Of a DNA stretch of 38,650 nt, positions 847-24,293 are shown piece after piece. This DNA comes from Candidatus Sulfopaludibacter sp. SbA4 (lineage in GTDB: Bacteria; Acidobacteriota; Terriglobia; Bryobacterales; Bryobacteraceae). The translations under genes were made by a program, and so were the position numbers. Each line of letters opens with the position of its first letter. Within the stretch, counting starts at the first letter, position 1. The notes beneath the pieces were generated by a model. It had not been told where the DNA came from. It saw only the letters and a list, made by a program, of their open reading frames with translations, and ran no database searches. The DNA is taken from positions 1-38,650 of the forward strand of contig OMOG01000623.1 in assembly GCA_900290305.1 (NCBI GenBank), given 5' to 3'.

Positions 847-3800
847 TCAGAAGAACAACCGGATTCCCAACTGCATCATGCGCGCGAAGTTCACCTGCGA
901 GGTGATGCGGCCGAAGCTGCTGCTGCCCAGCGAGGTATTGGGCGCGGCGAACATCGGGGTGTTGAAGAAATTGAGAGCTTCCGCGCGGAACTGCGCCTTG
1001 AAGCGCTCCGCGATGGCGAAGTTCTTGAACAACGAGGCATCCCAGTTGGCCTCTCCCGGACCCCGCATATCCAGGGTGCGGGCCACGTTGCCGAAGGCTC
1101 CGCGCGCGGACGTGGTGAAGGCCGCGGGGTTGATGTAATTGCTCAGCCGGTCTTCCAGGCTGCCGCTGGTGACGGGCGACACTCCGGTGGCATTCGGCCG
1201 CTGGCTGGCATAGCCGAATACCGAGTTGTTGTTGGTGCTCTGCGAGATCTGCAGCGGGAAGCCGGACTGATAAACGCCGATCATGTTGATCGACCAGCCG
1301 CCCACCACATAGTTGAGAGCCTTACCGGACGACAGCCATTGCTTGCCCTTGCCGAAAGGCAGCTCATAGGTGAAGGCGCTGGTCCAGCGGAGCGGCGCAT
1401 CCACATAGGAGAGTCCGTACTCGGCCGCCAGGTTGTAGGGATTCTGCGGTCCCACGTTGCCGCCATTCAGGAAATTGCCGGCGCCGCCGGAGCTGTTGTC
1501 ATAGTTGCGCGACCAAGTCAGGGTGGAGAGCAAAGTCAGTCCCATGCTCATGCGCTTCTGTACCTTGGCTACCAGCGAATCGTAACGCGCCTGGCCGCTG
1601 TCGTGGTACAGCAGGCTGACGGTGCTGAAAGTGGGATAGGGCAGCAGGAGTTGCACCTGGCTCACCGTGGCGGTTCCAACTACGCCCAAGCCGCCATGGT
1701 TGTAGTACGGATTGGCGACCGTCTGGGTGAGGGCCGACCCTTGCGAGAGCAGAGACGGATCGAGCGCGTTGATATTGATGCTGGGGGTGGACTGCGTGAG
1801 GTGCGAAGACCGCGACCCGACGTAGCCGATTTCCGCAGCGACGCCGAAAGGCAGTTGGCGCTGGATATCGATCGAGAACTGCTGGACGCGAGGCGACCGC
1901 GCGTTGGGATCGATGATCGAAAGAGCCTGTCCGATGCCGGTCAGAGCGCCGAGCGAGTTGCCGGTGGGGACGGCGAGGCCGGCCGGGAAGGGATTCGTCA
2001 GGTTGTTGGCGGGCGTAGAGTTGCCGTCGAGAGAAGCGACATAGGTCGTGGTGGCGGTGTAGCCCGGCGGATTGTAGGGCGTGCCGATGGCGAACTGGGG
2101 AGCCCAGAAGAGTCCGTAACCACCGCGGACAATGGTCTTCGGAGTCACTTGCCAGGCGAGACCGGCGCGCGGGCCGAACTTATTCAGGTTCGGGTTGCTG
2201 ACATGAATGCCGTTGCCGCCCACGCCGGCGAATTCGATGATGCCCTTGCCGCCCAGGGGATTGCTGTCCTGGGTATCGAAGCCGACCACCATGTCGTTGT
2301 TCTTCTCCTGCAGGCCGTACTCGCGCTCCCAGCGGATGCCGGCGTTCAGCGTGAGAGTTTTGGTCAGTCGGATATCGTCCTGGAAATAAGCGCCGTAGTA
2401 GTTGGCGTATTCGTACAGCTTGGTGGGGATGTAGCCGGTGCCGCTCGAAGCGGCGCCCAGCAGCATGTCGGCCAGGTCGGCGCCGGTGCCCGACACCGCG
2501 GTGAGCGGTGTGGAGCGGGAGAAGACGCCGTTGAAGCTGAACGCTCCGGCGCTGTTGGAGAAATCGTTGCCATCGTCATGAATGCGGCGATAGTCGAACC
2601 CCGCCTTGAGGTTGTGAATGCCTTTGTACTTCGCGATGCTGGCCGAGAAATTCTTGGAGTAGTGAGTGTAATAGAAGTTATTGTTGGTGCCCAGGCTGTA
2701 CTGCGAGGTCATCGAGACATTGGGGAACGTAGGCGAGGGCACCTGGGCGACAAAGGCGGGATTGAAGCCGAGGCTCGCCAGGTTGAAGCCCTGGCTCACC
2801 TGGTAACCGTAGTTGGGAAAGCGGTTGAAACCGTACCGCACCGAGAGCACCGCGGTGGGCGAGAGCGTGATCACGTTGTTGAACGCGGTGGCATCCACGC
2901 GCCGCTGCAGGCGCCACTGGTCGAGCGACGAGATAGTCTTGAACCAGGTGTTGCCAGGCTCGAGCGAGAAGTAACGCGCGTAGCTCAGGCTGGCGCGCCA
3001 CCAGGAAGTCACCGTATGATCGAGTTTCGCGGTATCCTGCGACGCGCGGCAGGGCAGAATCGCCGCGGCCGTCAGGTTGGGCGCCCCGTAATAGGCGGAC
3101 GTGGTTTGCGGCAGCACGTAAGTGGCGGCGATGTTGACGCCCACGTTGTTCAGCCGCGCGGTGGGAATGACGTTGCCCGGAAATGCCTGGCGGGTGCAGG
3201 TGCCGCCCGTGCACACGGTGGTAGACGGATCGTAGATGACGTTCAATCCGCCGCCCGCGGCCTTGCTCTGCGAGAAATCCCCGACACGCTCCAGCGTAGT
3301 GGGTGTGCTGAACTGCGACGTGTTCGACTGTGTATCGTCGTATCCTTCCCAGGCGAGCCAGAAGAACGTGCGGTTGCGGCCGTCGTAGAGTTTGGGGATC
3401 TTGACGCGGCCGCCGAAGCTGGCGCCGAAGGTGCGGTTGGGCTGCGGCGGCAGCGGAATGCCGGCGGCGTTGTTGAAGAAGTTGTTGGCCGCCCAGCCGG
3501 TGTCGCGCATGATTCCGAAGAGGCTGCCGTGGTAATCGTTGGTGCCCGACTTCAGGTACGTATTGAACATGCCGCCGCCGGTGCGCGCCATCTCGGCGTC
3601 GTAGGTGTTGGCCTGAACCTTCACTTCCTGCACGGCCTCCAGCGTGGGGATGATGATGGCGCGGTTGTCCGCGTCGGTGATCGGAATGCCGTCCAGCAGG
3701 TAGTTGTTGCCGCGCACGGGACCGCCGGCGATGGCGATCTGCGACGAGCCGCTCTGGTCTTCCATACGGTTGTAGTGCGGGTCGCCCACCGGCACGACGT

Positions 3801-4281
3801 TCTGCGCGAGCTTCGACATCATGAACGGATTGCGGCCCAGGTTGGGCAGATCCTCGAGCTTCTGGCGGTCGAGCACCTGGCCCTGGGAAGCATTGGCGGT
3901 CTCGATGAGCGAGACGTCCGCAGTCACCTGGATGCTCTCGCTCACCGCGCCGACTTCCATCTTGGCGTCGAGCGTGACAAACTCCTGCGTGCCGATGACG
4001 ATGTCCATGTGCTCGAATCGCTTGAATCCGGGCGATTCGACGACCAACTTATAAGTGGCGGGATCGACGGACGCGAAAGCGTACTCACCCTGCCCATTGC
4101 TGAGAGTGGCGCGCGAGACATTGGTCGCCTGGTTGACCAGGGACACTTTGGCGTCGCCAATGACAGCGCCTCCCGGATCTTGCACCACACCTCGGATGCC
4201 GCCCTGATAGGACTGGCCCCACATAGACAAGCTTGCGAGCGCGGCCAATACCGCGGCGCGTGAAATCGAACGTATCTTCAT
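847..4281 (-). CDS. TonB-dependent-receptor-like outer-membrane protein with N-terminal carboxypeptidase-regulatory domain
   Basis: An 1144-residue outer-membrane protein of the large acidobacterial receptor type. Residues 1-23 are a signal peptide. About 26-115 is a carboxypeptidase-regulatory/CNA-B-like beta sandwich (IRGVVQDPGGAVIGDAKVSL is its first strand pair). A plug-like segment follows (about 125-260, with NNYLLDGIPITDADN), then a long beta-barrel ending in aromatic GIRLFF, as expected for BAM-dependent insertion. A canonical N-terminal TonB box is not obvious. The substrate cannot be read from sequence; these proteins are usually linked to polysaccharide or oligomer uptake. The ATG at 4281 has an AAGGAG site 9 bp upstream and overlaps the SulP stop by 4 bp, so the three-gene operon is translationally coupled. 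A terminator follows. Confidence 0.9.
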   Translation of the reverse strand: MKIRSISRAAVLAALASLSMWGQSYQGGIRGVVQDPGGAVIGDAKVSLVNQATNVSRATLSNGQGEYAFASVDPATYKLVVESPGFKRFEHMDIVIGTQEFVTLDAKMEVGAVSESIQVTADVSLIETANASQGQVLDRQKLEDLPNLGRNPFMMSKLAQNVVPVGDPHYNRMEDQSGSSQIAIAGGPVRGNNYLLDGIPITDADNRAIIIPTLEAVQEVKVQANTYDAEMARTGGGMFNTYLKSGTNDYHGSLFGIMRDTGWAANNFFNNAAGIPLPPQPNRTFGASFGGRVKIPKLYDGRNRTFFWLAWEGYDDTQSNTSQFSTPTTLERVGDFSQSKAAGGGLNVIYDPSTTVCTGGTCTRQAFPGNVIPTARLNNVGVNIAATYVLPQTTSAYYGAPNLTAAAILPCRASQDTAKLDHTVTSWWRASLSYARYFSLEPGNTWFKTISSLDQWRLQRRVDATAFNNVITLSPTAVLSVRYGFNRFPNYGYQVSQGFNLASLGFNPAFVAQVPSPTFPNVSMTSQYSLGTNNNFYYTHYSKNFSASIAKYKGIHNLKAGFDYRRIHDDGNDFSNSAGAFSFNGVFSRSTPLTAVSGTGADLADMLLGAASSGTGYIPTKLYEYANYYGAYFQDDIRLTKTLTLNAGIRWEREYGLQEKNNDMVVGFDTQDSNPLGGKGIIEFAGVGGNGIHVSNPNLNKFGPRAGLAWQVTPKTIVRGGYGLFWAPQFAIGTPYNPPGYTATTTYVASLDGNSTPANNLTNPFPAGLAVPTGNSLGALTGIGQALSIIDPNARSPRVQQFSIDIQRQLPFGVAAEIGYVGSRSSHLTQSTPSININALDPSLLSQGSALTQTVANPYYNHGGLGVVGTATVSQVQLLLPYPTFSTVSLLYHDSGQARYDSLVAKVQKRMSMGLTLLSTLTWSRNYDNSSGGAGNFLNGGNVGPQNPYNLAAEYGLSYVDAPLRWTSAFTYELPFGKGKQWLSSGKALNYVVGGWSINMIGVYQSGFPLQISQSTNNNSVFGYASQRPNATGVSPVTSGSLEDRLSNYINPAAFTTSARGAFGNVARTLDMRGPGEANWDASLFKNFAIAERFKAQFRAEALNFFNTPMFAAPNTSLGSSSFGRITSQVNFARMMQLGIRLFF

Positions 4282-5621: not shown

Positions 5622-6766
5622 CTCATCACCTTGAGGAACGCCGTCTTGAACTTGTTCATTTCGTCCTGCGTTCCGACCGAAACCCGCACGTAGGTGGGCC
5701 AGCTCGGCCAGACGCGCCCGATGTAGATCTTCTCCTTTCTCATGGCCTCGATGATTTCGTTCCCGGGGCGTTTGACATCGACCATGAATTTGTTGGAAAC
5801 CGACGGAACGTACTTGAAGTTGTGCTTATCGAGGAACGAAAGCACGTCGGTGCGCACGCCAGCGATGATCTTGCGGCGCTCGGGCACCAGCGACTTGGAT
5901 TTCAGGCTGGCCGCGGCGCCCGCCATGCCGGTGACGGGAAGCGCGCCGCTGCTGAACGGCGTGATCTTCTGCAAAAGGTCGGGCCGCGCGATGGCCGCGC
6001 CGGCGCGTAGTCCGGCCATGCCGTAGATCTTGGAGAAGGTGCGCAGCACGATGATGTCCTTGTCCTTGGCCACCAGGTCTGAACACATGGGGGCGCCGGC
6101 GATGTGGATGTAAGCTTCGTCCAGGAGCAGGATGCTGCCCTTCGGCTTGTTCTCGAGCAGCCACTCGATATCGGCGCGCGGCGTCAGCGTGCCCGTGGGA
6201 TTGTTGGGATTGCAAACGTAGATCAGGCCGGCATTGGGGTCGGTGGCGGCCATGGCCCTGACGTCGTGAGCATAGGTCTTGGTCAGTGGCACGGCGATGA
6301 CCTTGGCGCCGATGTACTTGGCCGCGCGCTCGCCGGCTTCGTATCCGGGGTCGGCGGTCACGAAGGATTTGGTGGGCGACGTGAAGGCCAGCACCGCCTG
6401 GTGCAGGGGTGCGCTCGATCCGGCGAACGGCTGCACGTAATTGGGCTTGACGCCTTCGAGACCGGCCATGGTTTCCTGGAAGCCGAAGGTCTCTTCGTAC
6501 AAGTAGCGGCCGCCCTTCTGCACGATGTTGTGGATGGCTTCGGCGGCCTCGGGGCAAGGCCCGAGCGGGTTTTCGTTGGCGTTGATCTTGACGGCGTCGG
6601 GAGGCATCGGCCCGCGGATGGCGGAAAGTTGCGCCATGGCGGATTCGTTGTAAAAGGGAAGCGAAGCTCCGGCGGTTAATACGGCGGCCAGACGGCCAAA
6701 GCTGCGGCGCGAAAAGCCGCGATTGACGAAGTCGCGTTTCTGTTCCGGACTGAAACAGGTGTACAT
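5618..6766 (-). CDS. Histidinol-phosphate-aminotransferase-like PLP enzyme with Tat signal
   Basis: A 382-residue class I/II aminotransferase most like HisC. The fold is marked by NENPLGPCPEA (about 63-73), CNPNNPTGTLTP in the PLP-binding region, LLDEAYIH with the PLP-contacting Asp and Tyr, and RTFSKIYGMAGLRAG carrying the Schiff-base Lys. Residues 15-45 contain a twin-arginine motif (SRRSFGRL) followed by a hydrophobic stretch and AMAQ, a typical Tat signal. The enzyme is therefore predicted to be exported already folded with its cofactor. The ATG at 6766 has a good AAGGGGGA site 5 bp upstream. It leads the SulP/receptor operon with a 4-bp overlap, and no histidine genes are nearby, so the substrate is open. 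Confidence 0.85.
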   Translation of the reverse strand: MYTCFSPEQKRDFVNRGFSRRSFGRLAAVLTAGASLPFYNESAMAQLSAIRGPMPPDAVKINANENPLGPCPEAAEAIHNIVQKGGRYLYEETFGFQETMAGLEGVKPNYVQPFAGSSAPLHQAVLAFTSPTKSFVTADPGYEAGERAAKYIGAKVIAVPLTKTYAHDVRAMAATDPNAGLIYVCNPNNPTGTLTPRADIEWLLENKPKGSILLLDEAYIHIAGAPMCSDLVAKDKDIIVLRTFSKIYGMAGLRAGAAIARPDLLQKITPFSSGALPVTGMAGAAASLKSKSLVPERRKIIAGVRTDVLSFLDKHNFKYVPSVSNKFMVDVKRPGNEIIEAMRKEKIYIGRVWPSWPTYVRVSVGTQDEMNKFKTAFLKVMS

Positions 6767-6929
6767 TGTTTCCCCCTTTGCGAAGTGCTGGATATGGATG
6801 GCTCTCAGACCAGGAGCCCGATGCTACGCCGCCATGGGCGTAAAAGGGAATGTTTTGGAAAGCTTAACAGGTTGTTGAAAGGGTGTCGAATCAAAATAAT
6901 TTATGCGCACGATCAATGGGGCCGGCTCA

Positions 6930-6955
6930 GACAGGCCAGGAGGACTGTCCCACTA
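6930..6955. repeat. Short palindromic repeat that supplies a stop codon
   Basis: Arms GACAGGCC (6930-6937) and GGACTGTC (6942-6949) pair at 7 of 8 positions. Read on the minus strand the element begins TAGTGGGACAG, where TAG (6955-6953) is the stop codon of the preceding gene. The copy at 24291-24316 starts with the same 11 bases. Confidence 0.7.
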
Positions 6956-7534
6956 TGGCTGGGTGTAAATCCGCTCCAGGTCGGTCGAGCTGAGGCGCAA
7001 ATCGGGAGAGATGAGATTGCTGCCCGAAAGGGCCGAGCGCGCGACGCCCTCGCGGCCGTGATCTGCGGACTTGGAGAGAATGTGGACCAGTTCGTGGGCC
7101 ATCACGCGCGCCAGGGCGCGGCCGAACAGCAGGTCGGCGTGCGCGAAGTCGCGTCCCGACATGGCGGAGCGGGCCGCGTTGGCCACCTGGTCGCAGGCCA
7201 CTTCGCTGAAGGGTTGGACGGCGCCGGCGGTGGCATAGGTGAAGGCCAATGGGCCGCGCTCGTCGTAGAGCCAGGGTACGGGATCCAGCACGCACTTGCC
7301 CTTGAAGCGGACCACCACCAGATTGTCGAACGACTGGCCGGAGGTTTCCTCGCGGAATCGCCAGTCGAAGGTCAGGCCCGAGCCCTCGAACAGGGTTTCG
7401 AATTCGCGCTTCATTTCGGGGAGAGAGCGGGTGGGTGGTGCGCCCTGGAACTCGAGCACAATGGTGAGATTGCCCGCCGCGGCGAGCGAGGCGAGGGCCG
7501 CCAGACAAAATGCGCGAATGAGGACGTGGCGCAT
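6953..7534 (-). CDS. Secreted HExxH protein, putative zinc metallopeptidase
   Basis: A protein of about 193 residues with a signal peptide (MRHVLIRAFCLAALASLAAAG) and a zinc-binding HELVH motif in VMAHELVHILSKSADHG, about residues 130-146. A downstream Asp or Glu that could be the third zinc ligand is not clear, so catalysis is not assured. The reading frame extends upstream to GTG 7582, but a TATAAT hexamer on the minus strand (7577-7572) lies within that extension. I chose ATG 7534, where the signal peptide begins. The gene lies about 85 bp past the DUF1501 stop and may have its own promoter. It ends on TAG inside a palindromic repeat. I do not recognise a named family. Confidence 0.65.
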   Translation of the reverse strand: MRHVLIRAFCLAALASLAAAGNLTIVLEFQGAPPTRSLPEMKREFETLFEGSGLTFDWRFREETSGQSFDNLVVVRFKGKCVLDPVPWLYDERGPLAFTYATAGAVQPFSEVACDQVANAARSAMSGRDFAHADLLFGRALARVMAHELVHILSKSADHGREGVARSALSGSNLISPDLRLSSTDLERIYTQP

Positions 7535-7571
7535 CGGAGTGCCATTGGGAGCTGCAGGGCTCCGCATGGAT

Positions 7572-7577
7572 ATTATA
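7572..7577 (-). promoter_or_regulatory. Candidate -10 box for the HExxH protein
   Basis: A consensus TATAAT on the minus strand, 37 bp before the ATG at 7534. No convincing -35 box is seen 16-18 bp upstream (GC-rich), so this is a weak promoter call. Confidence 0.35.
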
Positions 7578-7619
7578 TACACGAAGGGGGCCGGCCCGCG
7601 AACTGCTACAGGGGGAAGC

Positions 7620-8996
7620 TCATGCCAGCACCGGCTTGACCACTTCGCCGTCTACGTCGGTCAGGCGGAAGTCGCGGCCTTGAAAGCGATAAGTCAGTCG
7701 CTTGTGGTCGATCCCCAGGCAGTGCAGGATGGTCGCCTGCAGGTCGTGGACATGCACCGGATCTTTGACAATGTTGTACGAGTAGTCGTCGGTTTCGCCG
7801 AAGGTGATGCCCGGCTTCATGCCCCCGCCCGCCATCCAGACCGTGAAGCACCGGCCGTGGTGATCGCGGCCATAATCGGTCGCGGTGAGGCGGCCCTGGC
7901 AATACACGCTGCGTCCGAACTCTCCGCCCCAGATGACCAGCGTGCCGTCGAGCATGCCGCGCTGGGCGAGATCCGTGACGAGGCCCGCGGACGCCTGGTC
8001 GACATCCTTGCAGCGCTTGGGCAGGCTCGCCGGCAGGTCGCCGTGGTGGTCCCAATCGCGGTGGTAGAGCTGGATGAATCGCACCCCGCGTTCGGCCAGC
8101 CGGCGCGCCAGCAGGCAGTTCGCCGCGAAAGTGCCGGGCTTTTTCGCGTCCTCGCCGTAAAGCTCGAACGTGGTGGCCGGCTCCTTCGAGATGTCAGTAA
8201 GCTCGGGCACCGAAGCTTGCATGCGAAACGCCATCTCATACTGCGCTACTCGGGCGGCGATTTCCGGGTCGCCGAATTCGTCGAAGGTGGCCCGGTTCAG
8301 CTCCCCTAAAGCGTCCAGGAAAGAGCGGCGTTTCGCGGTCGAGAAGCCCTCAGGGTTGGACAGGAAGAGCACAGGGTCACCTGCGGAGCGGAACTTCACG
8401 CCCTGGTGGCGGCTCGGTAGAAACGCGCTGCCCCACAGGCGGTCGTAGAGCGGCTGGCCGCCTCCGGAATTCGAGATCATCACGCAGAACGCGGGCAGTT
8501 CGTCGGTCTCGCAGCCTATGCCGTACGACACCCAGGCGCCCAGGCTGGGCCTCCCGCCCAAGCGGAAGCCGGTCTGCATCATGGTGGCCGCCGGATCGTG
8601 GTTGATCTCTTCGGTGTGCACTGACTTCAAGAAGGTGAGGCGGTCGGCGATCTGAGCGGTGTGAGGCAGTAAGTCACTGACCCACGCGCCCGACTGGCCG
8701 CACCGCGCGAACGCGAACTTCGACGGCACCACGGGAAACGTCGACTGCGACGCCGACATGCCGGTGAGCCGCTGGCCATTGCGCACTGACTCGGGAAGCT
8801 CCGTTCCCTGGAACTCGACCAGCCGCGGCTTGTAATCGAACAGCTCGATCTGCGAAGGCCCGCCCGATTGGAACAGGAAGATGACGCGCTTGGCTTTGGG
8901 CGGGAAGTGCGGCAGTCCGGGAAGGCCGCGCTGCTCCCGCTCGGCGGCCTTCAGCACCGATGCCAACGCCAGACCCGTGAAAAAGCGCCTCGTCAT
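7620..8996 (-). CDS. DUF1501 family protein (alkaline-phosphatase/sulfatase-like fold)
   Basis: A protein of about 458 residues from the DUF1501 family. It opens with a Tat-like signal ([17 protein letters not shown]) and continues with the family hallmark [20 protein letters not shown]. Other family segments are [17 protein letters not shown] and the C-terminal region [21 protein letters not shown]. The fold belongs to the alkaline-phosphatase superfamily, but the biochemical role is not settled. ATG 8996 was chosen because AAGGAG lies 6 bp upstream; the upstream GTG at 9002 would overlap the PSD1 stop. It is the constant partner of PSD1/DUF1549/DUF1553 cytochromes in Planctomycetota and Acidobacteriota, and here it follows one directly. 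Confidence 0.9.
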
Positions 8997-18136: not shown

Positions 18137-18300
18137 GTCCAGTTCACAACGGTTGCAGGGTGGTTCAGACAGGTTCGTTACGTCATCGAACGTGCTTATT
18201 CTTTAGTCAGTTGCGGAGGAACGAGGCGCCGGCCTTCGGGAACGGCGCTGCCTGGCGAGTGACGGCACGAGAGGGGATGAACAACGGTTGTGAACTGGAC
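18137..18300. promoter_or_regulatory. Divergent intergenic region with a long inverted repeat pair
   Basis: The 289-bp gap between the divergent receptor and MFS genes holds the 14-bp sequence GTCCAGTTCACAAC (18137-18150) and its exact reverse complement (18287-18300). Pairing extends with mismatches through an AACGGTT-like centre. The arms are 136 bp apart, one near each gene. They could be paired operator sites for one regulator serving both genes. Clear -35/-10 pairs were not identified. Confidence 0.4.
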
Positions 18301-18349
18301 AGCGGCTCCCGGCCGGGCTAGCCTTGGCATAGCCCTTCGAAGAAGCTCT

Positions 18350-19633
18350 ATGGATAAACCAGGCGCACGCGCCCACCCCGCCCGCTGGGTGCCCACCCTC
18401 TACTTCGCCGAGGGCTTGCCGTTCTACGCCGTGTCGCTGATGGCGCTGATCTTCTACCAGCGGATGGGACTGCGCAACGATGTAATCGCATTCACTACCA
18501 GCCTACTGGGGTTGCCCTGGTCGCTCAAGCCGCTGTGGAGCCCGTTCCTGGAAATGTACCGGACGAAGAAGTTCTTCGTGGTGCTGACGGAAACTGCCGG
18601 AGGGTTGAGCCTGGGGATGGTGGCGCTGTGCCTGCCGCTTCCCTCCTATTTCCGATTCAGCCTGGCCCTGTTCGCGCTGGCCGCGTTCTGCTCGTCCACC
18701 CACGACATTGCCGCGGACGGCATTTATATCGGCAGCCTCTCCGCCAAAGAGCAGGCGGCTTACGCCGGGTGGCAAGGCGGCTTTTATAATGTTGCGCGGT
18801 TCTTCGCGCAGGGCGGGCTGATCATCCTGGCCGGCTACCTGGAAGACCGCATGCCGGTGATCCGTGCCTGGATGGCCATCTTCGGTGTGCTCGGATTGCT
18901 GCTGGTCGGCCTGGCGCTGTATCACGCGCGCGTGCTGCCTAAGGGAGGCAAGGAGCGCCACGCCCAAGCGGTAGGCCGCACGTTTTGGGACGTGGTCAGC
19001 AGCTTTTTCCGCAAACCCAACATCCTGTTTTTCCTGGTGTTCATCTTTCTCTACCGCGCCGGAGAGGGCCAGGTGGTGAAGATCGGACCGCTGTTCTTGA
19101 AAGCCGCCCGTTCTACCGGAGGACTGGGACTCACCACGGCGCAGTTCGGCGCCATTTACGGCACGTTCGGAACGGGGGCCTTCATCCTGGGGAGCATCCT
19201 GGGCGGGTATTTCACCTCCTGGCTGGGACTGCGCCGGGCGCTGTTGCCGTTGGTGGCGGTGATGAATCTTCCGATGCTGGCATACTTCTACTTGAGTACG
19301 GCGCTTCCGACGAATACCGTGTTGATCACTTTGGCGATGAGCATGGAAATGTTCGGCTATGGTTTTGGATTCGTGGGTGTGATTCTGCTGATGATGCAGG
19401 AAATCGCGCCGGGGAAATACCAGACCGCGCACTATGCTTTTGCGAACTCGCTGATGAACCTGGGACTGATCGTGCCCGGCGCGATCAGCGGTAAAATCCA
19501 GATGGCCATCGGCTATCGCAATTTTTTTATTTGGGTGTTGATATCGGCGGTCCCGGCGTTGCTGCTGGCGCGGATCGTGCCGATTCATAAGGGCGCGGCG
19601 CCGGAGGTGGAGATGGAACCGGAACATGTCTAG
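18350..19633 (+). CDS. MFS transporter, AmpG/PAT-like, likely sugar importer
   Basis: A major-facilitator membrane protein of about 427 residues with roughly twelve hydrophobic helices. The N-terminal segment WVPTLYFAEGLPFYAVSLM and the following SLLGLPWSLKPLWSPFLEM resemble AmpG and related importers of amino-sugar compounds. The C-terminal half has LGGYFTSWLGLRRALLPLV and a Met-rich helix. The frame extends upstream to 18290, but ATG 18350 (MDKPGARAH) gives a normal cytoplasmic N-terminus. The stop TAG at 19631-19633 begins a palindromic repeat. The genes downstream encode a GlcNAc-1-phosphate-type enzyme fusion and chitobiose phosphorylase, so a chitobiose or related GlcNAc disaccharide substrate is inferred from context. 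Confidence 0.82.
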   Translation: MDKPGARAHPARWVPTLYFAEGLPFYAVSLMALIFYQRMGLRNDVIAFTTSLLGLPWSLKPLWSPFLEMYRTKKFFVVLTETAGGLSLGMVALCLPLPSYFRFSLALFALAAFCSSTHDIAADGIYIGSLSAKEQAAYAGWQGGFYNVARFFAQGGLIILAGYLEDRMPVIRAWMAIFGVLGLLLVGLALYHARVLPKGGKERHAQAVGRTFWDVVSSFFRKPNILFFLVFIFLYRAGEGQVVKIGPLFLKAARSTGGLGLTTAQFGAIYGTFGTGAFILGSILGGYFTSWLGLRRALLPLVAVMNLPMLAYFYLSTALPTNTVLITLAMSMEMFGYGFGFVGVILLMMQEIAPGKYQTAHYAFANSLMNLGLIVPGAISGKIQMAIGYRNFFIWVLISAVPALLLARIVPIHKGAAPEVEMEPEHV

Positions 19634-19674
19634 TGTGCCAGGAACCGTGGCGCAGGCACGAGTGCCTGCGCCAC
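19631..19674. repeat. Palindromic repeat between MFS and fusion gene
   Basis: Starting with the MFS stop TAG, this stretch includes a perfect 13-bp inverted repeat, GTGGCGCAGGCAC (19647-19659) and GTGCCTGCGCCAC (19662-19674). It is the best-paired copy of the CAGG/CCTG family in the window. It could be transcribed as a stable hairpin just before the start of the next gene. Confidence 0.75.
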
Positions 19675-19685
19675 ACCTTAATGCC

Positions 19686-21818
19686 ATGCCTTCAGACGCT
19701 CTCAAAGCCATCGTTCTCGCCGCCGGCAAAGACGCCGGGTCGCTCCTCACCAAGCACCTCGGCGACCGCACCATCGTCGAATGCGTGCTCGCGAATCTGT
19801 CCCAGATCGTGCCCCCCGGCGAGATCTACCTGGTTACCGCCGGCGGCCAGGCGCCGCTCGCCAACGGCTATCACCACGTGGTCCAGGAGTCGCCGCTCGG
19901 CACCGGCCACGCCGTACTGCAGGCCGCCCATGCGCTGCGCGACTATCGCGGCAATCTCTTGATCCTCTACGGCGACACGCCGCTGGTCCGCTCCGGATCG
20001 CTTCTCGGACTGCTCAATCGGCACCGCCTGCGCCAGGCGCACCTCACGCTGCTCACCGCCGTGGCGGACCGTCCGCTGCCTTATGGGCGGATCATCCGCG
20101 ACGCCGCCGGCCACATCATGGACATCATCGAAGAGAAGGAGGCCTCGGCCGATGTGCGCGGTATTCGCGAGCTGAATGTGGGCGCGTACGTGGTCGAGGC
20201 CGGCGTCCTGTTTCACGCTTTAGAGCGCCAAAACCGTCTCACCGATTGCGTGCATGCGCTGATTCGTTCCGGCCTGCGCGTCGAAAGCTACCGCATCTAC
20301 GACCAGGACGAGGTGCAGGGCATAAACTCCGCGGAGGATCTCGCGCGCGCCGAGTTTATCGTGGAGAAGCGCCTGTTCCGCCCGCGCCGCCAGGAGGAAC
20401 AGAACCTCGTCACTTTCGGCACCGGGGGATGGCGCGCCGTCATCGGCGAGGGCTTCACCATGCACAACGTGCGGCGCCTCAGCCAGGCGCTGGCCAATGA
20501 GATCACTCGCCAGGGTCAGGAGAGCCGCGGAGTTGTGATCGGCTACGACCGGCGTTTCCTTTCCAGGCAGGCCGCCGAGGCTTCGGCGGAAGTCTTTGCC
20601 GGTAACAACGTTTCCGCGGTGCTCTTGACGGAGGATGCGCCCACTCCGCTCATCACCTACGCCACGTCGATTCGGGGCTCGGCTTACGGACTGGCCTTCA
20701 CCGCCAGTCACAACCCCCCGGAGTGGAACGGACTCAAAGTCTTTCGCGGCGATGGGTCCTTGCTGCTGGATCACGAGACGCGTGCGATTGAAATCGAGAC
20801 GAACTCACTCACTCCGCACCAGGTGATCAAGCTGGAACTGGACATCGGCCTCGAAGCCGGCATCATCCAGCCCGGCGATTTCACCAACCAGTACGTGGAC
20901 GCGGTGGAAGCCTTGATCGATCTGGAGGCCATCCGCAAGGCCGGGCTGAAGGTAATGGTGGACCCCATGTACGGGGTCGGTCAGTTGACCTTGGGAACCG
21001 TCCTCACTGAAGCCCGCTGCCGAGTCAGTTTCATCCACGAGCGCCACAACCCGCTGTTCGGCGGGCGCTCGCCCGCACCCAACCAAGAAGCGCTGCGGCT
21101 GCTGGCGTCCCACATGCGCGAAGGAGTCTACGATATCGGGCTCGCCATGGATGGCGACGCCGACCGCATCGCCATCGTGGACGAGCGCGGCGAGTATATC
21201 CCGGTGAACGATATCCTGCTGCTGCTGTATTGGTACCTGCACGAGATGCGCGGCGAGCGCGGCGGCGTGGCGCGCAACCTTTCCACCACGCACCTGCTGG
21301 ACCGCCTGGCGCACAACCTGGGCGAGGAATGTTACGAGGTCCCGGTCGGTTTCAAGCACATCGTATCGACCATGCAGGAGCACCAGGCGCTGCTGGGCGG
21401 CGAGTCTTCGGGCGGGTTGACGATTCGCGGCCACATCCTGGGCAAGGATGGCATCTTCGCGGCCGCGCTGATCGTGGAGATGCTTGCCTGCACAGGCCAG
21501 AAGGTTTCCGGGTTGCGCAAGACGGTCTATGGCATCACGGGCCGCCTCTACGCGCTGGAGGAAAGCCTGCCCGCCACCCCGGAGATGCGCGTCGCGGTTC
21601 CGCGCCGATTGAAGGAGATGCCGGCGGGGCGCATCGGGCAGTACCCCGTGCTGCGGGTTTCGCAGATGGATGGGACGAAGCTGTATCTCGAAAACGACAA
21701 CTGGGCTTTGGTGCGCTTCTCCGGGACCGAGCCCGTTCTCCGCCTGGCGGTGGAAGCCGATTCGGAACAGAAGGCCACTGAGTTAGTGGATTGGCTGCGA
21801 CAGTTTGTAAGGGCTTGA
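19686..21818 (+). CDS. Fusion of GlmU-like uridylyltransferase domain and phosphohexomutase
   Basis: About 710 residues in two parts. Residues 1-235 resemble the N-terminal pyrophosphorylase domain of GlmU, with LAAGK, QESPLGTGHAV, LYGDTPLV, PYGRI, IIEEKEA, ELNVGAY and the metal-binding GINS. The usual GTRM nucleotide loop after LAAGK is replaced by an unrelated, shorter stretch, so transferase activity is uncertain. Residues 240-710 form a phosphoglucomutase/phosphomannomutase-type enzyme with catalytic Ser 341 in TASHNP, metal loop DGDADR (489-494), sugar loop GGESSGG (571-577) and phosphate loop RFSGTEP (677-683). No hexapeptide-repeat domain is present. The frame opens at 19626, but the first 20 residues are repeat-encoded, so I prefer ATG 19686 despite a weak ribosome site. 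Likely role: handling GlcNAc-1-phosphate made by the next gene. Confidence 0.82.
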   Translation: MPSDALKAIVLAAGKDAGSLLTKHLGDRTIVECVLANLSQIVPPGEIYLVTAGGQAPLANGYHHVVQESPLGTGHAVLQAAHALRDYRGNLLILYGDTPLVRSGSLLGLLNRHRLRQAHLTLLTAVADRPLPYGRIIRDAAGHIMDIIEEKEASADVRGIRELNVGAYVVEAGVLFHALERQNRLTDCVHALIRSGLRVESYRIYDQDEVQGINSAEDLARAEFIVEKRLFRPRRQEEQNLVTFGTGGWRAVIGEGFTMHNVRRLSQALANEITRQGQESRGVVIGYDRRFLSRQAAEASAEVFAGNNVSAVLLTEDAPTPLITYATSIRGSAYGLAFTASHNPPEWNGLKVFRGDGSLLLDHETRAIEIETNSLTPHQVIKLELDIGLEAGIIQPGDFTNQYVDAVEALIDLEAIRKAGLKVMVDPMYGVGQLTLGTVLTEARCRVSFIHERHNPLFGGRSPAPNQEALRLLASHMREGVYDIGLAMDGDADRIAIVDERGEYIPVNDILLLLYWYLHEMRGERGGVARNLSTTHLLDRLAHNLGEECYEVPVGFKHIVSTMQEHQALLGGESSGGLTIRGHILGKDGIFAAALIVEMLACTGQKVSGLRKTVYGITGRLYALEESLPATPEMRVAVPRRLKEMPAGRIGQYPVLRVSQMDGTKLYLENDNWALVRFSGTEPVLRLAVEADSEQKATELVDWLRQFVRA

Positions 21819-21887: not shown

Positions 21888-24293
21888 ATGGAGCTTATGC
21901 GCTACGGCTGGTTTGACAACGAAAACCGCGAATACGTAATCGACCGCCCCGATGTCCCAGTCTCCTGGACTAACTACCTGGGAGTCGAGAGTCTCTGTAC
22001 GGTCATCTCCCACAATGCCGGCGGGTATTCGTTCTATAAGTCCGCCGAGCATGGCCGAGTCACTCGCTTCCGCCCCAACGGCGTGCCGCTCGACCGGCCG
22101 GGTCACTACTGCTACGTCCGCGACGATGACACCGGCGAATATTGGTCCATCTCCTGGCAGCCCGTGGGGAAAGACTTCGGGCAGGCCCGCTACGAGTGCC
22201 GCCACGGCCTCTCTTACTCGCGATTCACCTGCGACTACCGCGACCTGCACGCCGAGCAGACCATCTTCATCCCGCTGGGCGACGACGTCGAGGTATGGGA
22301 CGTGCGGATTCGCAACGATAGCCCCACGCCGCGCCGTCTCAGCGTGTTCGGGTACGTCGAGTTTTCTTTTCACCACATCGACATCGATAACCAGAATCTG
22401 CAGATGAGCCTGTATGCCAGCGGATCGAGTTATCGCGATGGCGTGATCGAGTACGATTTCTTTTACGAGCCATGGACCTTTCACTACTTCACAGCCGGCT
22501 TCGAAGCCCAAAGCTTCGACAGCCTGCGCGACAGCTTCATCGGCAGCTACCGCAACGAGACTAACCCCATCGCGGTGGAGCGCGGCCATTGCGGCAACCG
22601 CTCGGAGCTGGGCGGCAATCACTGCGGCGCCCTGCATACTCGAGTGACTCTGCCGGCGGGGAAATCGGTGCGGCTGCCATTCCTGCTGGGCGTGGGCCCG
22701 CGCGAAAAGGGCCGGCAGATCCGCGCCAAGTATTCGAGCGCGGCCGCGGTGGATGCCGCCTTCGCCGGACTGCGGTCGTACTGGCAGGAGAAGCTTGGCG
22801 CGTTCCAGTCGCAGACTCCGCACCCGGGTCTCGACACCATGATCAACACGTGGACGCTGTACCAGGCGGAGACCTGCGTGGTCTGGTCGCGGTTCGCGTC
22901 CTTCATCGAAGTCGGCGGGCGCATGGGACTGGGATACCGCGATACCTCGCAGGATGTGATGTCGGTGGCCCATACCAATCCGGCCAAATGCCGCCAGCGG
23001 ATCATCGAGCTTTTGAAGGGCCAGGTGAACCAGGGCTACGGGCTGCATCTCTTCGACCCCGATTGGTTCGACCTCGAAAAGCAGGCCGCGCCCAAGTTCA
23101 AGTCACCCACCGTCACGCCCTCGCCCGACCGCAAGAGCATCATACACGGGCTGGCCGACGTCTGCTCCGACGACGCGTTGTGGCTGGTGGTCTCCATCTG
23201 CGAGTACGTGAAGGAGACTGGCGAAACCGCCCTGTTCGACGAAGTCGTGCCGTTCGCCGACGAAGGCGAGGCCACGGTCTACGAGCACCTCAAGCGCGCT
23301 CTCGATTTTTCGGCGGAGCAGGTCGGCCCCACCGGCATCTGCAAGGGCCTCCGCGCCGACTGGAACGATTGCCTCAACCTGGGCGGCGGCGAAAGCGCCC
23401 TGGTGTCGTTCCTGCACCACTGGGCGCTGCGGGCCTTTGTCGAAGCCGCCGAGTACTTAGGCCGCACCACTGACTCGACTCAGTATTGTCGCCTGGCCGA
23501 GAAGGTTCGCCAGACGTGCGAGAGCGAGCTTTGGGACGGCGAGTGGTACATCCGCGGCATCACTTCGAGCGGCGTCCGGATCGGCACTCACAAAAGCGAA
23601 GAAGGCAAAATCTTCCTCGAAAGCAACACCTGGGCGGTGGCATCGGATCTCGCTCCGCCGGACCGCGCGCGAAGCACCATGGATGCGATCGACCGTCACT
23701 TATTCTCCGAGTACGGCATCCACTTACTCTGGCCGGCGTTCTCCAAGCCCGATGACCAGATCGGCTTTGTGACTCGGGTGTACAAGGGCATCAAGGAGAA
23801 TGCCGCGATCTTCAGCCATCCCAACCCGTGGGCGGTGATCGCGGAGTGCAAGCTTGGCCGCGGCGACCGCGCCATGAAGTTCTACGACGCGCTGCTGCCT
23901 TATCGCCAAAATGACTGCATTGAGACTCGCGAGGCGGAGCCGTACTCCTATTGCCAGTTCGTCATGGGCCGCGACCATACGGCCTTCGGCCGCGCGCGCC
24001 ACCCGTGGCTGACCGGCAGCGGCGGCTGGAGCTACACGGCCGCGACGCGATGGATCCTCGGGGTGCGGCCGGGCTTCGACGGGCTCATCGTAGACCCCTG
24101 CATTCCGGCCGATTGGAAGGAATTTCAAGTGACCAGGCGATGGAGGGGTGCGACGTACCACATCACCGTCCGCAATCCTGATGGCGTGCAGAAGGGCGTG
24201 AGGGCGGTGAGCCTGAATGGCGGCCCATTGGTGGCCACGATACCGCCGCAGCCCGCTGGATCGGTGAACGAAGTTTCGGTAGAGATGGGCTAG
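21888..24293 (+). CDS. chbP: N,N'-diacetylchitobiose phosphorylase (GH94)
   Basis: An 801-residue cytoplasmic GH94 enzyme, the same length as characterised Vibrio chitobiose phosphorylases and, from memory, closely similar throughout. It cleaves GlcNAc-GlcNAc with phosphate to give GlcNAc and GlcNAc-1-phosphate. Family landmarks are FDNENREYVIDRPDVP at the N-terminus, TNYLGVESLCTVISHNAGG, LYQAETCVVWSRFASFIEVG, GYRDTSQDVMSVAHTNPAK, the catalytic region GLRADWNDCLNLGGGES (Asp 491 or 494 as general acid), WLTGSGGWSYTAATRWILG and VDPCIPADW. The start could be ATG 21888 or ATG 21897; the latter gives MRYGWFDN, matching the family N-terminus. The upstream hairpin suggests translational coupling to the fusion gene. 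Its TAG stop is part of a palindrome shared with the converging sigma-factor gene. Confidence 0.93.
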   Translation: MELMRYGWFDNENREYVIDRPDVPVSWTNYLGVESLCTVISHNAGGYSFYKSAEHGRVTRFRPNGVPLDRPGHYCYVRDDDTGEYWSISWQPVGKDFGQARYECRHGLSYSRFTCDYRDLHAEQTIFIPLGDDVEVWDVRIRNDSPTPRRLSVFGYVEFSFHHIDIDNQNLQMSLYASGSSYRDGVIEYDFFYEPWTFHYFTAGFEAQSFDSLRDSFIGSYRNETNPIAVERGHCGNRSELGGNHCGALHTRVTLPAGKSVRLPFLLGVGPREKGRQIRAKYSSAAAVDAAFAGLRSYWQEKLGAFQSQTPHPGLDTMINTWTLYQAETCVVWSRFASFIEVGGRMGLGYRDTSQDVMSVAHTNPAKCRQRIIELLKGQVNQGYGLHLFDPDWFDLEKQAAPKFKSPTVTPSPDRKSIIHGLADVCSDDALWLVVSICEYVKETGETALFDEVVPFADEGEATVYEHLKRALDFSAEQVGPTGICKGLRADWNDCLNLGGGESALVSFLHHWALRAFVEAAEYLGRTTDSTQYCRLAEKVRQTCESELWDGEWYIRGITSSGVRIGTHKSEEGKIFLESNTWAVASDLAPPDRARSTMDAIDRHLFSEYGIHLLWPAFSKPDDQIGFVTRVYKGIKENAAIFSHPNPWAVIAECKLGRGDRAMKFYDALLPYRQNDCIETREAEPYSYCQFVMGRDHTAFGRARHPWLTGSGGWSYTAATRWILGVRPGFDGLIVDPCIPADWKEFQVTRRWRGATYHITVRNPDGVQKGVRAVSLNGGPLVATIPPQPAGSVNEVSVEMG

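Follow-up and report, generated by a model that had tools for sequence, protein, structure and literature searches.

The window, as we call the whole 38,650-nucleotide stretch that was analyzed, includes an open reading frame on the forward strand (positions 19626 to 21818) that encodes 730 amino acids and is flanked by two genes in the same orientation. Upstream is a gene for an AmpG-like MFS transporter (18290 to 19633), whose match to TIGR00901 scores 137.9 bits, under the cut-off of 350. Downstream is a gene for a GH94 N,N′-diacetylchitobiose phosphorylase (21888 to 24293), as identified by Pfam GH94 and by a match of 1217.7 bits to PDB 1v7v, which we take to be the Vibrio enzyme. A perfect, GC-rich hairpin of 12 bp (19647 to 19674, forward strand; RNA fold z −3.3), of which there is one exact copy in the genome, lies between the transporter stop codon and an in-frame ATG at 19686, the second of the reading frame. 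Given this placement, translation of the fusion gene probably starts at 19686. Elsewhere in the window, the reverse strand encodes a large outer-membrane beta-barrel (847 to 4281; PF25183, 695 bits) that also carries a carboxypeptidase regulatory-like domain.

Sequence searches divide the 730-residue protein into two parts. Residues ~27 to 252 match the uridylyltransferase domain of GlmU (19686 to 20411, counted from the second in-frame ATG), and residues ~262 to 730 match alpha-D-phosphohexomutases (20409 to 21815). The GlmU-like domain is thus located where the initial annotation had placed it. It matches PDB 1g95 (phmmer E = 2.4e-27) and NCBIfam NF010934 (144.6 bits), and its predicted structure (pLDDT 89.1) aligns to Mycobacterium tuberculosis GlmU 3spt with a Z of 31.0 and an rmsd of 2.5 over 235 residues. 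The mutase part scores above the cut-offs of PF02878, PF02879, PF02880, and PF00408 and includes domains I to IV with the phosphoserine, metal, sugar, and phosphate loops, whose motifs are TASHNP (Ser codon 20706 to 20708), DGDADR, GGESSGG, and RFSGTEP. In a model of the full-length protein (pLDDT 85.8, pTM 0.86), the C-terminal part matches phosphoglucomutase 9du5_A (Z 43.8, rmsd 2.4, 435 residues). Hexapeptide repeats and a left-handed beta-helix acetyltransferase were absent from the window protein in a Pfam scan, and the mutase domains are present instead. Judging by its motifs, the fused mutase is apparently intact, and solely from the GH94 neighbor we infer that its substrate is GlcNAc-1-phosphate.

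In GlmU, Arg18 and Lys25 (E. coli numbering is used throughout) hold the beta and gamma phosphates. In an alignment with E. coli GlmU (sequence from NC_000913), the residues KDAGSLLT follow LAAG in the window at the place where the E. coli protein carries KGTRMYSDLPKVL. The altered phosphate loop, KDAGSLLTKHLG (19728 to 19763, forward strand), replaces KGTRM...PKVL and provides no equivalent of either Arg18 or Lys25. This agrees with the observation made in the initial annotation that the loop after LAAG is altered and that the catalytic Arg of GTRM is gone.

A scan of genome contigs yielded 35 loci, 32 of which carry the fusion, so that 33 N-terminal domains were available when the window was included. 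Further genome searches added 20 more for a total of 53, which are sequences rather than independent events; six of the 20 lack the sugar-side hairpin described below and are outside the 33-row set. One fusion, L031, is frameshifted within its N-terminal domain and is included in counts of 33 and excluded from counts of 32. At this locus (6001 to 8162) in the complete genome of Paraoerskovia sediminicola, the fusion and the GH94 gene each appear frameshifted, reflecting either sequencing error or real loss. The 43 ordinary GlmUs used for comparison were chosen, E. coli apart, by the pattern GxG[TS]R, and their Arg18 is therefore present by construction; L049, L108, and L114 (which reads GKSTRF) were left out as not matching. 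As judged by record titles, carriers of the fusion include Acidobacteria, Chloroflexi, Alphaproteobacteria, and Actinobacteria, and the gene is found in 18 of 396 genomes from one actinobacterial order. A search of plasmids recovered no records with the N-terminal domain and only mutases, in two records.

The initial annotation had proposed that a normal GTRM loop in orthologues would mark the window copy as merely decayed. The loop GxG[TS]R is found in none of the 53 N-terminal domains across four bacterial groups, and a lysine at the position of Lys25 is missing from all 33 fusions of the first set and all 20 of the second. The absence of the loop from every fusion orthologue examined, together with selection on the domain (see below), rules out the decay of one copy. 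That the loop is shortened, as had also been claimed, is true of the window (8 residues versus 13) but not of the family, wherein 23 of 33 fusions keep the 13-residue length of E. coli GlmU and carry mostly Ile or Leu in place of Arg18 and mostly Leu or Ile in place of Lys25. On this alignment, the five-residue shortening in the window is a later, local change. Loop length ranges from 5 to 18 residues across the 33 fusions and the sequence is variable, with no column in which Arg or Lys is present in all fusions; the highest occupancy, 24 of 33, is at an LGDR turn. Relative to most orthologues, the window domain also has extra in-frame deletions near 19850 and near 20233.

The fusion N-terminal domains form a single clade with support of 1.0. 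This finding suggests that a single loss of the loop probably preceded the fusion or followed it shortly, and that the gene then probably spread between phyla. No fusion with an intact loop was present as an intermediate among those examined. The nearest thing to one is the Chloroflexi fusion L013, whose GKGTI sequence retains GKGT and has Ile for the catalytic Arg.

The remainder of the pocket presents a very different picture from the loop. Asp105 and Asn227 are Mg ligands of GlmU, whereas Glu154 and Asn169 are sugar-side residues. In the window, the motifs listed in the initial annotation are all in place on the forward strand: YGD (19968 to 19976) with the equivalent of Asp105, a putative Mg ligand, at 19974 to 19976; a sugar-side hairpin region (20082 to 20177) that includes YGRI from 20082, the Glu154 equivalent in IEEKEA (20130 to 20132), and the Asn169 equivalent in ELN (20175 to 20177); and the Asn227 equivalent in GIN (20325 to 20327), also a putative Mg ligand. 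The claim that the domain keeps its sugar side is correct but incomplete, because Ala13, Gly14, Gln76, Gly81, and Thr82 on the uridine side are retained along with the Mg ligands Asp105 and Asn227. The equivalents of Gln76 (19884 to 19886) and of Gly81 and Thr82 (19899 to 19904) lie on the uracil side of the pocket. A study on M. tuberculosis GlmU lists Ala14, Gln83, and Gly88 as uracil contacts (PMC9105790); the counterparts of the latter two, Gln76 and Gly81, are present in every one of the 33 fusions.

Indeed, Leu11, Ala12, Gln76, Gly81, Thr82, Asp105, Gly140, Glu154, and Asn169 are invariant in the 33 fusions, and conservation is nearly complete for Ala13 and Thr199 (32 of 33 each) and for Gly14 and Asn227 (31 of 33 each, one of the Asn227 misses being the frameshifted L031). 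Among 31 alignment columns that are at least 95% conserved in the 43 ordinary GlmUs, all eight within residues 16 to 32 are lost in fusions, although three of these eight are conserved partly through row selection, since the selection pattern covers residues 16 to 19. By contrast, of the other 23 columns, 18 retain their residue in 90% or more of 32 fusions (hypergeometric p = 1.6e-4). At a threshold of 85%, only two group-wide switches are evident, in which Thr113 is exchanged for Ser and Tyr197 for Arg. Position 197, which we presume lines the GlmU pocket, is Tyr in 43 of 43 ordinary GlmUs and Arg in 28 of 32 fusions (28 of 33 with L031 included); the window carries this Arg at 20235 to 20237. 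The suggestion in the initial annotation that the domain might use another nucleotide is unsupported, given that Gln76 and Gly81 on the pyrimidine side are unchanged in all 33 fusions and that uracil-binding residues are kept alongside those for sugar and metal. Conservation of these pocket residues could also serve folding.

One actinobacterial branch departs from this pattern. In loci L153 to L158, which represent six of the 18 fusions from the actinobacterial order, ~35 residues comprising the hairpin with Tyr139-Gly140-Arg141 and Glu154 are lost, Asn169 is replaced by Asp and Thr82 by Pro, and position 197 is occupied by Ser instead of Arg. These proteins retain Gln76, Gly81, Asp105, and Asn227, and in the four that were checked, no mutase motif is damaged. 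The GH94 gene follows the fusion in five of the six loci; for L158, the contig stretch ends inside the fusion gene. The dN/dS values for the N-terminal domains of this branch are 0.26 to 0.49. With the hairpin lost and GH94 still adjoining in five of six loci, sugar binding is dispensable in this branch and cannot explain why the domain is retained there.

Pairwise dN/dS values for 12 pairs, which are not independent and include some high dS values, range from 0.04 to 0.33 for the N-terminal domain versus 0.02 to 0.14 for the mutase. Thus, the N-terminal domain is under purifying selection, and this constraint is looser than that on the mutase in most pairs. The loosest pairs are two that involve the window (0.26 and 0.33) and L024/L025 (0.27). 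The faster evolution of the window domain, together with its further deletions, suggests that this particular copy may bind a ligand only weakly.

The fusion gene often adjoins one for an enzyme of chitin sugars. In 16 of 28 loci having at least 1 kb of downstream sequence, the next gene after the fusion is a GH94 gene at a distance of up to ~430 bases, and it follows the fusion in 15 of 17 loci from the second, actinobacterial set. An AmpG-like transporter gene is upstream in 11 of 32 loci. In the window's own genome, NagA is detected at 230.8 bits (cut-off 225.65). The sugar may differ at the 12 of 28 loci that lack an adjoining GH94 gene, some of which have GH130 or GH20 genes instead. The neighbors there include GH130 phosphorylases (L016 and L017), GH20 and transporter genes (L010), and ABC transporter parts (L013), while at the other such loci the neighbors give no pointer to any sugar. 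L016 and L017 are two fusion genes in one Chloroflexi assembly, each near a GH130 phosphorylase gene, hinting at a different sugar-1-phosphate.

Most carriers also encode a separate GlmU. Of the carrier genomes, 31 in number, a complete or almost complete copy was detected in 25, a C-terminal piece in two more, and none in four; 20 of the 31 pass the GlmU family's own cut-off. The free GlmU loci of these carriers have a GxxTR loop in 24 of 26 cases, with the N terminus missing in one and one being ambiguous, so that the contrast between fused and free domains holds inside the same genomes. The window's own genome, whose assembly is 84% complete, yielded no full GlmU above the cut-off, and such a GlmU was found in 37 of 61 genomes (its own and 60 relatives). 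The presence of an ordinary GlmU in most carriers means that the N-terminal domain is not generally supported as the sole source of UDP-GlcNAc.

Because the loop for the beta and gamma phosphates is gone family-wide, the N-terminal domain very probably no longer joins UTP to GlcNAc-1-phosphate. Our best reading of the whole, which we put forward tentatively, is that this pseudo-GlmU controls the mutase to which it is fused by binding a ligand that resembles UDP-GlcNAc. The domain has a GlmU fold that would no longer accommodate the beta and gamma phosphates of UTP and that retains the rest of the product pocket for uracil, Mg, and GlcNAc. The phosphorylase would release GlcNAc-1-phosphate, the attached mutase would convert it to GlcNAc-6-phosphate, and the dead domain would tune the mutase by binding most likely UDP-GlcNAc and less likely GlcNAc-1-phosphate. 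The size of the pool of cell-wall precursors would then decide whether chitin carbon is burnt or spared. The parts of this proposal differ in strength: loss of catalysis is strongly indicated by the conservation pattern, regulatory ligand binding is plausible at slightly less than even chances, and UDP-GlcNAc as the specific regulatory ligand is doubtful. The initial annotation had offered a GlcNAc-1-phosphate sensor, a channel, or an inactive domain; the evidence points in that general direction, with none of 53 domains carrying the GxG[TS]R loop, but the hairpin loss in L153 to L158 counts against a sugar sensor.

The GlmU fold might instead be a scaffold that only stabilizes, orients, or oligomerizes the mutase, or docks it on the phosphorylase, in which case the pocket residues would be inherited and slowly lost. 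Such a role is consistent with the actinobacterial branch, which is without the sugar hairpin and Thr82 and is still fused, with GH94 adjoining in five of six loci and dN/dS values of 0.26 to 0.49. The faster evolution of the N-terminal domain than the mutase in most pairs fits as well, as does the pTM of 0.86, which suggests a defined packing in the predicted structure. However, a scaffold does not predict uracil residues that are invariant, together with Glu154 and Asn169 (33 of 33), beside a loop that varies freely, and we regard this explanation as somewhat unlikely.

Two further possibilities give Arg197 a direct role. It is improbable that the domain captures GlcNAc-1-phosphate released by the phosphorylase, with Arg197 holding the phosphate, and passes it to the mutase. 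The replacement of Tyr197, found in 43 of 43 ordinary GlmUs, by Arg in 28 of 32 fusions is one of only two group switches, and GH94 adjoins the fusion in 16 of 28 loci, both of which favor capture; however, capture leaves unexplained why uracil-binding Gln76 and Gly81 are so strictly conserved, and the placement of residue 197 in the pocket is our own assumption. Alternatively, the domain could still be a uridylyltransferase wherein Arg18 and Lys25 are replaced by the relocated Arg197 or by an Arg or Lys of the LGDR turn, so that GlcNAc-1-phosphate is salvaged straight to UDP-GlcNAc. Another Arg in the same spot had been named in the initial annotation as grounds for refuting its claim, and the new Arg197 would be a candidate for this part. 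The remaining substrate and metal residues are all retained, and GH94 would supply the GlcNAc-1-phosphate. Yet neither replacement is universal (28 of 33 for Arg197 and 24 of 33 for the LGDR turn), the loop varies in sequence and from 5 to 18 residues in length, and most carriers have a separate GlmU, all of which make this explanation very unlikely.

A fusion of this kind is easily taken for a bifunctional maker of UDP-GlcNAc, but the conservation pattern makes it unlikely that the usual chemistry takes place. Should the domain be a sensor, as in the regulatory reading that we prefer, chitin breakdown would be linked to the cell-wall precursor pool. Moreover, the family would offer a natural series, from full GlmU to loss of the loop to the additional loss of the sugar hairpin, in which the conversion of an enzyme into a regulator could be studied.

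Among known systems, the N-terminal domain of GlmU itself (1g97, 3spt) is similar in fold (Z 30 to 31), in sequence (~32% identity), and in its uracil, sugar, and Mg residues, whereas the window domain is without the GxGTR/Lys25 loop, has Arg for Tyr197, and is joined to a mutase instead of a left-handed beta-helix acetyltransferase. The same reactions that we propose, involving GH94 and a GlcNAc-1-phosphate mutase, make up the Vibrio chitobiose phosphorylase route, to whose phosphorylase the window GH94 is closely similar (1217.7 bits to 1v7v). A chitobiose phosphorylase and a GlcNAc-1-phosphate mutase are described from a genome of chitinolytic Acidobacteria (PMC6252331), and this route is described in Chitinispirillum (PMC4814513). 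The passages on the route in those papers mention no such fusion, whereas the window mutase carries an apparently dead GlmU domain; a search of open-licence literature for the fusion or its pathway found no description of the fusion.

A precedent for regulation is GMPPA, the non-catalytic paralogue of GDP-mannose pyrophosphorylase, which binds GDP-mannose and inhibits GMPPB (PMC11228364). In GMPPA, a nucleotidyltransferase fold that has given up catalysis still binds what was once its product and controls an enzyme, and the window domain may do likewise, an analogy that implies no homology beyond the shared superfamily. The target of GMPPA is a pyrophosphorylase in a separate chain, on which it acts in trans, and what it senses is GDP-mannose, whereas the window domain is fused in cis to a mutase and its ligand is putative. 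The domain might have become a sensor of UDP-GlcNAc that controls, in cis, the GlcNAc-1-phosphate mutase of chitobiose phosphorolysis and so decides whether GlcNAc-1-phosphate from chitin is burnt or reserved for building the cell wall. It would be a bacterial counterpart of GMPPA, spread between four groups and losing its sugar half in one actinobacterial branch, although we consider this full proposal questionable.

A nucleotidyltransferase and a phosphohexomutase are also present in one chain in the fused mannose-1-phosphate guanylyltransferase/phosphomannomutases, in which the loop is intact and the two domains are separated by hexapeptide repeats. In its scores, the window protein is far nearer to GlmU (144.6 bits) than to NF052502 (31.5 bits). 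Another fusion was noted in a relative, where L066 (2836 to 5199) joins a nucleotidyltransferase to a GHMP kinase. It carries an intact GKGTR loop and belongs to a different family.
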